DNA of 64,000 bases from the NCBI RefSeq assembly GCF_964019385.1, contig NC_088644.1:24032366-24096365 (forward strand), given 5' to 3'. Positions 48,575 through 64,000 of this stretch are shown here, in pieces. Numbering within the stretch: the stretch's first letter is position 1; the number at the start of each line of letters is the position of its first letter. The stretch is from Sycon ciliatum (taxonomy: Eukaryota; Porifera; Calcarea; Leucosolenida; Sycettidae). The translations under genes were made by a program, and so were the position numbers. The notes under the pieces are model-generated. The model did no database searches and had not been told where the DNA came from. It saw only the letters and a program-made list of their open reading frames with translations.

Positions 48575-51222
48575 AGTAGTAGTAGTAGTAGTAGTAGTAG
48601 TAGTAGTAGTAGTAGTAGTAGTAGTAGTAGTAGTAGTAGTAGTAGTAGTAGTAGTAGTAGTAGTAGTAGTAGTAGTAGTAGTAGTAGTGCTAGTACAGTA
48701 GTAGTAGTAGTAGTAGTAGTAGTAGTAGTAGTAGTAGTAGTAGTAGTAGTAGTAGTAGTAGTAGTAGTAGTAGTAGTAGTAGTAGTAGTAGTAGTAGTAG
48801 TAGTAGTAGTAGTAGTAGTAGTAGTAGTAGTAGTAGTAGTAGTAGTAGTAGTAGTAGTAGTAGTAGTAGTAGTAGTAGTAGTAGTAGTAGTAGTAGTAGT
48901 AGTAGTAGTAGTAGTAGTAGTAGTAGTAGTAGTAGTAGTAGTAGTAGTAGTAGTAGTAGTAGTAGTAGTAGTAGTAGTAGTAGTAGTAGTAGTAGTAGTA
49001 GTAGTAGTAGTAGTAGTAGTAGTAGTAGTAGTAGTAGTAGTAGTAGTAGTAGTAGTAGTAGTAGTAGTAGTAGTAGTAGTAGTAGTAGTAGTAGTAGTAG
49101 TAGTAGTAGTAGTAGTAGTAGTAGTAGTAGTAGTAGTAGTAGTAGTAGTAGTAGTAGTAGTAGTAGTAGTAGTAGTAGTAGTAGTAGTAGTAGTAGTAGT
49201 AGTAGTAGTAGTAGTAGTAGTAGTAGTAGTAGTAGTAGTAGTAGTAGTAGTAGTAGTAGTAGTAGTAGTAGTAGTAGTAGTAGTAGTAGTAGTAGTAGTA
49301 GTAGTAGTAGTAGTAGTAGTAGTAGTAGTAGTAGTAGTAGTAGTGGTAGTGGTAGTGGTAGTGGTAGTAGCAGTAGCAGTAGCAGTAGCAGTAGCAGTAG
49401 CAGTAGCAGTAGCAGTAGCAGTAGCAGTAGCAGTAGCAGTAGCAGTAGCAGTAGCAGTAGCAGTAGCAGTAGCAGTAGCAGTAGCAGTAGCAGTAGCAGT
49501 AGCAGTAGCAGTAGCAGTAGCAGTAGCAGTAGCAGTAGCAGTAGCAGTAGCAGTAGCAGTAGCAGTAGCAGTAGCAGTAGCAGTAGCAGTAGCAGTAGCA
49601 GTAGCAGTAGCAGTAGCAGTAGCAGTAGCAGTAGCAGTAGCAGTAGCAGTAGCAGTAGCAGTAGCAGTAGCAGTAGCAGTAGCAGTAGCAGTAGCAGTAG
49701 CAGTAGCAGTAGCAGTAGCAGTAGCAGTAGCAGTAGCAGTAGCAGTAGCAGTAGCAGTAGCAGTAGCAGTAGCAGTAGCAGTAGCAGTAGCAGTAGCAGT
49801 AGCAGTAGCAGTAGCAGTAGCAGTAGCAGTAGCAGTAGCAGTAGCAGTAGGAGTAGTAGTAGTAGTAGTAGTAGTAGTAGTAGTAGTAGTAGTAGTAGTA
49901 GTAGTAGTAGTAGTAGTAGTAGTAGTAGTAGTAGTAGTAGTAGTAGTAGTAGTAGTAGTAGTAGTAGTAGTAGTAGTAGTAGTAGTAGTAGTAGTAGTAG
50001 TAGTAGTAGTAGTAGTAGTAGTAGTAGTAGTAGTAGTAGTAGTAGTAGTAGTAGTAGTAGTAGTAGTAGTAGTAGTAGTAGTAGTAGTAGTAGTAGTAGT
50101 AGTAGTAGTAGTAGTAGTAGTAGTAGTAGTAGTAGTAGTAGTAGTAGTAGTAGTAGTAGTAGTAGTAGTAGTAGTAGTAGTAGTAGTAGTAGTAGTAGTA
50201 GTAGTAGTAGTAGTAGTAGTAGTAGTAGTAGTAGTAGTAGTAGTAGTAGTAGTAGTAGTAGTAGTAGTAGTAGTAGTAGTAGTAGTAGTAGTAGTAGTAG
50301 TAGTAGTAGTAGTAGTAGTAGTAGTAGTAGTAGTAGTAGTAGTAGTAGTAGTAGTAGTAGTAGTAGTAGTAGTAGTAGTAGTAGTAGTAGTAGTAGTAGT
50401 AGTAGTAGTAGTAGTAGTAGTAGTAGTAGTAGTAGTAGTAGTAGTAGTAGTAGTAGTAGTAGTAGTAGTAGTAGTAGTAGTAGTAGTAGTAGTAGTAGTA
50501 GTAGTAGTAGTAGTAGTAGTAGTAGTAGTAGTAGTAGTAGTAGTAGTAGTAGTAGTAGTAGTAGTAGTAGTAGTAGTAGTAGTAGTAGTAGTAGTAGTAG
50601 TAGTAGTAGTAGTAGTAGTAGTAGTAGTAGTAGTAGTAGTAGTAGTAGTAGTAGTAGTAGTAGTAGTAGTAGTAGTAGTAGTAGTAGTAGTAGTAGTAGT
50701 AGTAGTAGTAGTAGTAGTAGTAGTAGTAGTAGTAGTAGTAGTAGTAGTAGTAGTAGTAGTAGTAGTAGTAGTAGTAGTAGTAGTAGTAGTAGTAGTAGTA
50801 GTAGTAGTAGTAGTAGTAGTAGTAGTAGTAGTAGTAGTAGTAGTAGTAGTAGTAGTAGTAGTAGTAGTAGTAGTAGTAGTAGTAGTAGTAGTAGTAGTAG
50901 TAGTAGTAGTAGTAGTAGTAGTAGTAGTAGTAGTAGTAGTAGTAGTAGTAGTAGTAGTAGTAGTAGTAGTAGTAGTAGTAGTAGTAGTAGTAGTAGTAGT
51001 AGTAGTAGTAGTAGTAGTAGTAGTAGTAGTAGTAGTAGTAGTAGTAGTAGTAGTAGTAGTAGTAGTAGTAGTAGTAGTAGTAGTAGTAGTAGTAGTAGTA
51101 GTAGTAGTAGTAGTAGTAGTAGTAGTAGTAGTAGTAGTAGTAGTAGTAGTAGTAGTAGTAGTAGTAGTAGTAGTAGTAGTAGTAGTAGTAGTAGTAGTAG
51201 TAGTAGTAGTAGTAGTAGTAGT
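48575..51222. repeat. (TAG)n array 1, with hexamer island
   Basis: Starts after GTGCTAGTAC; the same 12-mer flank GTGCTAGTACAG recurs at 48687-48698 inside the array. (AGT)n to 49344, a GGTAGT transition, an (AGCAGT)n island at 49370-49850, then (AGT)n to 51222. Confidence 0.97.
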
Positions 51223-51323
51223 CAAAGAACTTTATTGAAAATCCATGATAATGTGATCGGAAAGATGATGGAAGAAAAATCAATCAAATCCAGGCAATTA
51301 TTAGCAGTCACTACTATCAAAGC
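51223..51323 (-). mobile_element. 101-bp 3' remnant of a non-LTR retrotransposon
   Basis: On the minus strand this sequence ends ATTTTCAATAAAGTTCTTTG and runs straight into (CTA)n. AATAAAG a few bases before the repeat copies the layout of the element at 53769-56118 (AATAAAG, then the repeat). Non-coding; too short to assign a family. Confidence 0.55.
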
Positions 51324-62569: not shown

Positions 62570-64000
62570 ACAAGGCCTCTTTTACGGGCAAATGACGCAT
62601 ATGCGTAAACCAAAAGCAACAAGAAACTCAATAAACAATGTCCAACAAAAGAATCTGCTGACTGCAAAAAAGGACACAAGGTAAAACTCAAGTCCAATAG
62701 ATCGCGTATGGTACGTATGTGTGAACAAACCAAAAGCCGATTGAGTGGTGAATGTGGAATGTGTAAGTTGAAAACTCGAGTCTGATAAATAGCCTATTGG
62801 GGGTATATGTGTAAAAACATCATAAACCAATAGGGTGGTGGATGTATAATTTGTCTGCGTGTGAATGCTTATTTCGATCTGTCCGATAAACAAAACAAAA
62901 CAAACTATTATAAAAGTAGAACCAAAAAAAACAAAACAAAAAAAAACATAAACAAAAAAAAACAAAGACATGCTCAAAAACAGATATGTCCGTTACGTCA
63001 CAGCATCCGTCTAGGATCGGCCACACAGCCCCATGCCACTACCGGAGCAGCCTGCACTCCGTGACAAACGAATTGCCACGGCGTACGCCCCGAGCTCCCC
63101 GGCATCCACGCAGACAGGTTACGGCCCAGCGGAGGAGGCAGAAGGCAATCTTGGCACGAAGATGGTGCATGACGACGGAGTACTGTAGGTCAGAGTGCTT
63201 CTCCACCACGCGCTGAACAAGCCGCTTCAGGAACATTCCACACTCTGCCCCAGCCATGCCATTCGTAGCAAACACCAACGGAGTGAAGGCACCTCGCTCG
63301 ACGTCCGTGATCCTCTGGCAGTATTTTCGCTTCTTCTCCAACTCGCTGGTGCGCAGTTGGCCAAGGGCTTCCGAACGCGACAGCAGGGACGCTTTAGGGT
63401 GGGTGACCCTAACATCAAAGAAAGCGTCCTGCTGCCTTGTCCAGAAACCCCCGACCCTGATGTCCAAACGAGCTTCAGCGCTGCGATTGGCGGTCCGGCC
63501 GGCGAGCACCTCGCCATCGAGAGGGAGCAGTCTAGGCTCGACCTCCACGTCTGGCACGACATCGCCAAGGACAGCCGCCAGGGTGTCCCGGATTTCGTCA
63601 TGACGTGCCATCGGGTACCCCCCATGTGGACACGTCATCGAGTGGTGTAGGGTGGTGTCCGCTCCACAAGCGCATTTGCACGGGACATCCAGTGGCAGGT
63701 ACCCATAGCGTATGCACACCGCATCTCGAAAGTCGGACTTGTTCAGGATTGTCCGGTGCGCAGTAAGCGGGGCACACGTCAGCCATGACGACACGCCCTT
63801 CTCACCGGCGATATCTGTGAGGCATTTCTGAGGCGGTGGCAGATCGGGATACAACGCCGCGACTAGTGCCTTCTGCGACTTCTCCTTGTCCTTGCGACGT
63901 GAGACCGCTCGCTTGCGGGACTCGGTAACGGCTGCGACCGACGGGTTATCACAAACCGGCTGGGTGGTGTGGACCCCAGGTTCTGGCCGGGTCACAGGTC
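62570..64000 (-). mobile_element. Non-LTR retrotransposon insertion (-), copy 2, partial
   Basis: Same 3' end as copy 1, again directly at the TAG array. By eye it differs from 58697-60127 at about eight or nine positions plus length changes in the A-rich tract, so about 99% identical. Confidence 0.85.
63039..64000 (-). CDS. Non-LTR retrotransposon C-terminal protein, copy 2, cut by window edge
   Basis: Nearly the same as the coding region at 59163-60531 over the visible part: same knuckle (about 63634-63682) and endonuclease block, with a few residue changes such as Ala to Val beside GGFWTRQQ and Arg to Lys in LRAKIAF. Open to the edge. Confidence 0.85.
   Translation of the reverse strand, partial: PVTRPEPGVHTTQPVCDNPSVAAVTESRKRAVSRRKDKEKSQKALVAALYPDLPPPQKCLTDIAGEKGVSSWLTCAPLTAHRTILNKSDFRDAVCIRYGYLPLDVPCKCACGADTTLHHSMTCPHGGYPMARHDEIRDTLAAVLGDVVPDVEVEPRLLPLDGEVLAGRTANRSAEARLDIRVGGFWTRQQDAFFDVRVTHPKASLLSRSEALGQLRTSELEKKRKYCQRITDVERGAFTPLVFATNGMAGAECGMFLKRLVQRVVEKHSDLQYSVVMHHLRAKIAFCLLRWAVTCLRGCRGARGVRRGNSFVTECRLLR

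Follow-up and report, generated by a model that had tools for sequence, protein, structure and literature searches.

A long array of the trinucleotide TAG (CTA on the complementary strand) in the calcareous sponge Sycon ciliatum is repeatedly interrupted by other DNA. These inserts are very probably non-long terminal repeat (non-LTR) retrotransposons that use the (TAG/CTA)n microsatellite as their insertion target and that encode a reverse transcriptase (RT) together with a putative C-terminal restriction-like endonuclease (RLE). The array lies in contig NC_088644.1, within the stretch of 64,000 nucleotides analyzed here (positions 24,032,366 to 24,096,365 of the forward strand), hereafter called the window. 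Copies have array on both sides, each family meets the repeat in one 3′ register and, with rare exceptions, in one orientation, 5′ truncation is seen, and at least six related families occupy the same arrays.

Tandem Repeats Finder (TRF) calls a single array in the window, with TAG on the + strand, at 48575-62569. A preliminary description of this DNA had proposed at least four insertions in (TAG)n, junctions that pass straight from element to repeat, and opposite senses of the repeat after elements on the two strands. All three proposals hold: insertions of families F, A and B (copy B1) interrupt the tract, and a further family B copy (the B2 insertion) adjoins its right end and has array on its outer 5′ side as well. 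The same description had recognized two families in the window, where there are three (A, B and F). The features are as follows, with positions counted from the first nucleotide of the window.

48575 to 51222, + strand: (TAG)n array, left part (TRF and exact runs), with a TGCTAGTACAG break at 48688-48698 and an (AGTAGC)n hexamer stretch at about 49344-49853.
51223 to 51323, - strand: family F copy of 101 bp, 5′ truncated; 3′ end AATAAAGTTCTTTG, then (ACT)n on its own strand; array on both sides.
51324 to 53768, + strand: (TAG)n array from F to A.
53769 to 56118, + strand: family A copy, 5′ truncated inside the RT; 3′ end AATAAAGTCAACGTTCTC, then (AGT)n; array on both sides.
53769 to 55731, + strand: partial open reading frame (ORF) of A, with the RVT_1 domain at about 53872-54396 and what we take, by motif, to be a CCHC-like knuckle (about 55081-55125) and an RLE-like stretch (about 55150-55434).
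56119 to 58695, + strand: (TAG)n array separating the 3′ ends of A and B1.
58696 to 60531, - strand: family B copy 1 (B1), 5′ truncated; 3′ end GAGGCCTTGTT, then (ACT)n; array on both sides.
59163 to 60531, - strand: C-terminal part of the B1 ORF, presumed, likewise by motif, to include a knuckle and an RLE-like stretch.
60532 to 62568, + strand: (TAG)n array from B1 to the B2 insertion.
62569 to 64000 and continuing past the window, - strand: family B copy 2 (the B2 insertion), with array on its 3′ side.

The 5′ end of the B2 insertion lies about 0.3 kb beyond the window and also adjoins array (locus L020). With a slash marking the boundary, the junctions read GTTCTC/AGT for A, GGCCTTGTT/ACT for B and TTCTTTG/ACT for F. 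The + strand element is therefore followed by the repeat in its TAG sense, and those on the - strand are followed by the CTA sense.

The same arrangement recurs throughout the genome. Searches with the DNA of element 3′ ends gave 42 matches for A (the best 40 of 236 candidates scored) and, for B, the best 40 of 87 candidates scored; 30 loci were read for each of these two families, and 10 of 40 listed copies were read for each of families C, H and I. All 92 of the 3′ ends read adjoin a TAG/CTA array (A 32/32, B 30/30, C 10/10, H 10/10, I 10/10) rather than the 28S ribosomal DNA target of R2-type elements; two of the loci, L064 and L065, are mutual duplicates, so not all of the flank counts are independent. 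Each family keeps one register, with AGT following the 3′ ends of A, C and H, and ACT following those of B and I. An extra A stands at the junction in 10/10 copies of C, one of which (L078) has a one-base variant in its second repeat unit. Apart from an additional base in C and E, the RLE 3′ junctions seen keep the /AGT or /ACT register. In the A, B and C copies read, the 3′ ends are fixed and the points of 5′ truncation are many and varied. A variant of B in L035-L038 ends GGCCTT/ACT, three bases shorter than GGCCTTGTT/ACT.

Where the 5′ end of a copy is visible, its flank is array in 35 of 36 cases (B 17/18, A 13/13, C 5/5), on the same strand in 34 of those 35 and often for hundreds of bases. 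Since array is present on the 5′ side too, these are insertions into arrays and not mere tails. The proposal that (TAG)n is the target would have fallen if most copies had non-TAG flanks or TAG on the 3′ side only; most instead have the repeat on both sides, as microsatellite targeting predicts. Array also flanks very short copies on both sides, including stubs 28, 59 and 101 bp long and, for family E, an end of 17 bp. Near the 5′ junction the array is impure in L050 and L071, and in L069/L085, which are one copy, it is inverted beside the element. At position 1188 of L069 (the L085 site) the repeat switches head-to-head from AGT to ACT, 77 bp before the family C copy. Impurities common to both sides of an insertion, which would prove that an array had been split, were looked for, and none was convincing. 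Long direct terminal repeats were not noticed in the copies, with no separate LTR search made.

The abundance of the repeat gives a measure of how often such junctions would arise by chance. In the 538-Mb genome containing the window (313 contigs), exact (TAG)6 occurs 512,699 times on both strands together versus 9,649 times for the reversed control, and (TAG)63 occurs 423,185 times versus 0. A comparison of the two TAG counts places more than four-fifths of the repeat words in tracts of at least 189 bp. At three bases per match, perfect TAG sequence amounts to about 1.5 Mb, or about 0.3% of the genome, and a random junction would thus be TAG about 3 times in 1000. Insertion at TAG is beyond chance.

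Many families share this habitat. Further 3′ ends at array edges in the loci read belong to families A′, E, E2, H, I, F and B2, and these, together with C, are linked to A and B at 44-65% identity by tblastn. The families sort into two polarity classes, one with AGT after the 3′ end (A, C, E, H) and one with ACT (B, I). If arrays are common to the families, then A, C, E and H are expected on one strand of an array and B and I on the other. This was examined by coordinates for 241 listed copies (40 each of A, B, C, H and I, and 41 of E), with polarity labels taken from the flanks and with 2 partial A, 3 C, 1 I, 1 E and 16 S1 rows excluded. Another family lies within 10 kb of 107 of the 241 copies; uniform random placement gave 1.8 on average over 200 draws and never more than 8. 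Within the same distance, the labels fit 79/79 cross-family pairs and 30/30 same-family pairs, and all 40 multi-family clusters are consistent with polarity. For the control repeats L, S1 and G, only 1/40 copies each lies near an RLE copy, and the G case is the query's own place. A tree of nine families built on 154 C-terminal columns (A′ was excluded as too short) needs one polarity change, with weak support (61/41), and a single switch may or may not have occurred. Many copies on contigs C1-C10 match family E over no more than its final 67 bp (query 334-400), at a uniform 96% identity; they look like a short non-autonomous relative.

Full-length copies measure about 4.3 kb for A and about 4.5-4.6 kb for B, each with one long ORF, and the open frames of two A and two B copies run 1,200-1,238 codons from stop to stop. 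Pfam recognizes RVT_1 in A (E 1.5e-07, 31.8 bits versus a cutoff of 29.6); B and A pieces fall just below that cutoff (29.3 and 29.0 bits), and the family C piece gave no RVT_1 match. A single long ORF with an RT, a fixed 3′ end and 5′ truncation are all characteristic of RLE-type (R2 group) non-LTR retrotransposons. The C-terminal part is common to A, B and C at about 50% identity, and its conserved blocks read CxC...HH...C and RH..RD/EP/DIR/FFDVRV/KK. A nine-cysteine motif near the N terminus, PCCxCSK..GxCxxCSC......CxxCYPGxxGRCRN, is conserved between A and B (L070, about 3011-3150; L072, about 2265-2400); the region has no Pfam match and is perhaps a DNA-binding part. At their 5′ ends, Dong and R4 elements are reported to carry a ribozyme like that of hepatitis delta virus (HDV). 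An Rfam search for an HDV-like ribozyme, with E up to 10, covered the 5′ region of L072 from family B and that of L070 from family A and gave chance matches only; L070 lacks its first bases, as the longer L071 shows. Single-sequence searches of the PDB gave nothing useful.

Several observations weigh against the reading of these elements as RLE-type retrotransposons that target TAG. The copies sampled are the closest relatives of each query, a non-random set, albeit one selected without regard to flank. One B copy (L011) has array at its 3′ side only, the roughly 3.6 kb before its 5′ end being free of TAG, and a periodic target conceals any target-site duplications. The strand rule weakens with distance, such that 107/108 pairs agree at 20 kb and 131/143 at 50 kb, and pairs and clusters are partly duplicates. 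Two loci break with the polarity of their relatives. On the - strand of L040 (2557-2615), a 59-bp stub of family I lies in an AGT array and has AGT after it where the family otherwise has ACT; in L053 (about 2035-2797), a family B2 copy has a 3′ end that resembles B (TTTTGCCCGTAAAAGAGGC..) yet is followed by AGT, the opposite of B. Both may be polarity switches. On the protein side, the blocks after the RT in A, B and C are ones that we provisionally take, by motif, to be a CCHC knuckle and a PD-(D/E)XK-like nuclease (the RLE). Beyond RVT_1, Pfam matched no knuckle or nuclease in A and B, and NCBIfam found nothing relevant in the element proteins. When profiles were compared with the PDB, the RT profile reached R2 proteins without significance (E 0.064 and 0.083) and the RLE profile retrieved unrelated chains only. 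Structure models are too poor to use, with a mean predicted local distance difference test (pLDDT) score of 37.6 for the RLE part and 33.4 for the part from the N terminus to the RT.

The junctions permit the most likely mechanism to be outlined. The element protein would nick the array on a single strand, at a TpA step, at 5′-ACT^ACT for A, C, H and E and at 5′-AGT^AGT for B, I and F. If both registers are placed on the duplex, the first nick would fall at TpA in each case, from opposite strands. The freed 3′-OH would then prime reverse transcription of the element RNA from its fixed 3′ end, as in target-primed reverse transcription. The other end would be joined later inside the array, often after an early stop that would leave the copy truncated. 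Orientation might have a cause other than a strand-specific nuclease, however, and this alternative has a substantial chance of being correct, if somewhat short of even. The repeat at the 3′ end of an RNA that reads through into the downstream array could anneal to just one strand of the next array, and each family would then simply inherit the polarity of its founder insertion. Such base pairing accounts for steady family polarity as well as for the rare switches in L040 and L053, and it has a parallel in SART1, for which annealing of short telomere-like RNA sequences to the target has been proposed (PMC7265360). Against it, the 3′ junction falls at one fixed element base in nearly all copies read, which means that a precise start of reverse transcription is needed.

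We give little credence to each of the remaining alternatives. A few past insertions into TAG arrays could have been multiplied by segmental or tandem duplications that copied each element together with its array, targeting itself having ceased. Duplicates do exist, including L064 and L065 (which have the same truncation point), three copies at C8:17554889/17558499/17562109 with a spacing of 3610, and a mirrored set at C12:25.83-25.88 Mb. Most copies read nevertheless differ in truncation point and array length, and the 241 copies form 157 separate clusters and lie on 13 large contigs; this alternative is very unlikely.

Slightly less probable still is the idea that TAG is a 3′ tail made by the elements' own RT, with arrays as products rather than targets. 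Tails of this kind are present in the genome. The repeat L, which may be a CR1-type long interspersed nuclear element (LINE) with an apurinic/apyrimidinic endonuclease (APE), has 374 3′ ends in the genome at up to 3 mismatches, and the repeat G gave 952 first-look candidates; both are located in ordinary DNA at dispersed sites. In 19 of the 20 L copies read (from 40 listed), AATAAAAGAA is followed by (TAC)2-15 and then by other DNA, with one copy lacking a tail. All 16 of the G copies read (again from 40 listed) have a (TAC)n tail of 2-12 units and then other DNA. Copy L011, with array at its 3′ side only, would also conform. Tail addition in the manner of L and G was rejected as the source of the RLE flanks because the 5′ flanks are array as well, almost always on the same strand and often over hundreds of bases. 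The stubs of 28-101 bp between arrays and the presence of opposite-polarity families in one array argue likewise. Least credible of all is a retention bias, with insertion anywhere and survival only in TAG-rich or silent DNA: copies are strongly clustered, but such a bias gives no base-exact repeat junctions, no single register and no uniform agreement of clusters with polarity, and L and G, where placed, show no clustering with RLE copies.

Other repeats seem to seed the TAG tracts. An L or G 3′ end borders RLE-hosting arrays at six loci: L050, L060 and L067 (A), L062 (E2 and A), L084 (C) and L118 (H). Of 15 TAG tracts listed from the first 3.2 Mb of contig C1, two are close to an L end, at distances of 2 and 17 bp. 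Long arrays were viewed in a tiny sample, namely the two that head the list for contig C1. One follows a CA repeat, and about 0.8 kb on each side is free of RLE elements; the other (C1:18510879 to about 18511350, about 0.47 kb) follows an L 3′ end, and the 0.8-1.0 kb read per side is likewise free of them. These two arrays suggest, short of proof, that arrays can grow without RLE elements nearby. Together with the apparent seeding by other repeats, they leave as a conjecture the idea in the preliminary description that microsatellite growth and retrotransposition may feed each other. The repeat S1, with 40 placed copies at dispersed sites, is a possible third seeder. Short TAG tracts occur at the same end of S1 in L001 and L002 (about 1500; in L002, ...GGGCAGTCATGCTGC/TAG).

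In historical terms, new arrays may have started as short (TAC)n tails left by L and G at dispersed sites. Some of these tails would have expanded by ordinary repeat instability and tandem duplication, and would then have served as landing pads. We tentatively propose a system with two levels, in which L and G make the microsatellite at hundreds of sites at least, and a radiation of some six to nine or more RLE families has come to specialize on it. In such a system the two polarity classes would cut one TpA step from opposite strands, and the habitat would reach kilobase scale through the combined effect of arrays, insertions and tandem duplication.

TRAS and SART elements encode a nuclease of the APE type. 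In Bombyx, these related families occupy one telomeric repeat in opposite orientations, and the insertion site of SART and the nick made by the TRAS1 nuclease both fall between a T and an A (PMC7265360, PMC10088271). The elements described here resemble them in having opposite-orientation sister families in one tandem repeat and, on the mechanism proposed, a T/A site. They differ in that TRAS and SART belong to the R1 clade and occupy a telomeric repeat, whereas the sponge elements are RLE-like and occupy a microsatellite.

Among RLE-type elements, Dong of the R4 clade occurs in (TAA)n with TAA on its 5′ side (PMC3774820, PMC2887409). DongAg and DongBg were found in microsatellites (PMC3636483), and some HERO families also have microsatellite targets (PMC3774820, PMC3636483, PMC4640811). 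Dong thus likewise enters a trinucleotide repeat, but that repeat is TAA and not TAG/CTA, which here hosts at least six related families in two polarity classes, and the HDV-like ribozyme of Dong had no Rfam counterpart in the two 5′ regions searched, that of A being incomplete. Togen comprises (TG)n-specific families related to NeSL (PMC4640811), and so offers another case of microsatellite-specific relatives of RLE-type elements. Its target is a dinucleotide and its hosts are fish, and the available part of that account makes no mention of sister families of opposite polarity (PMC4640811). RTE elements of Lepidoptera generate microsatellites by means of a 3′ repeat, and the making of microsatellites has been contrasted with the mere targeting of them (PMC2887409). 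A 3′ repeat that seeds new microsatellites is shared with L and G. There, however, making and targeting are set apart, whereas here both act on the same repeat in one genome.

RLE elements with microsatellite targets are therefore already known (Dong, Togen). No report of a TAG repeat as a retrotransposon target, and none matching a search on insertion into repeat tails, was found in the literature searched, many subscription journals being outside its coverage. What seems new is the use of TAG as a target, how many families use it, their division into two polarity classes, and the presence of maker and user of one repeat side by side. The system provides a clean natural case of retrotransposon target choice, with one simple repeat, many related families and two orientations that can be read from coordinates. 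It joins two processes that have been described separately, microsatellite making and microsatellite targeting by retroelements, on the same repeat in one genome, and it bears on why one triplet repeat here has grown to kilobases and its reversed control has not. It also opens the question, at the level of the protein, of what leads a restriction-like nuclease to recognize AGT^AGT or ACT^ACT.

Elsewhere in the window, Pfam matches to ten ORFs comprise transposase pieces, one domain of unknown function (DUF) and otherwise weak matches only. The transposase pieces, at 25441-26890, comprise two ORFs that match DDE_Tnp_1_7 and another that matches zf-Tnp_2, and are presumably piggyBac-like. Two further simple repeats stand out, a perfect (CA)489 microsatellite at 28580-29557 and an unusually long perfect 7-bp array called by TRF at 1177-9076, in which CCCAGAG is repeated 1,128 times at 100% match.

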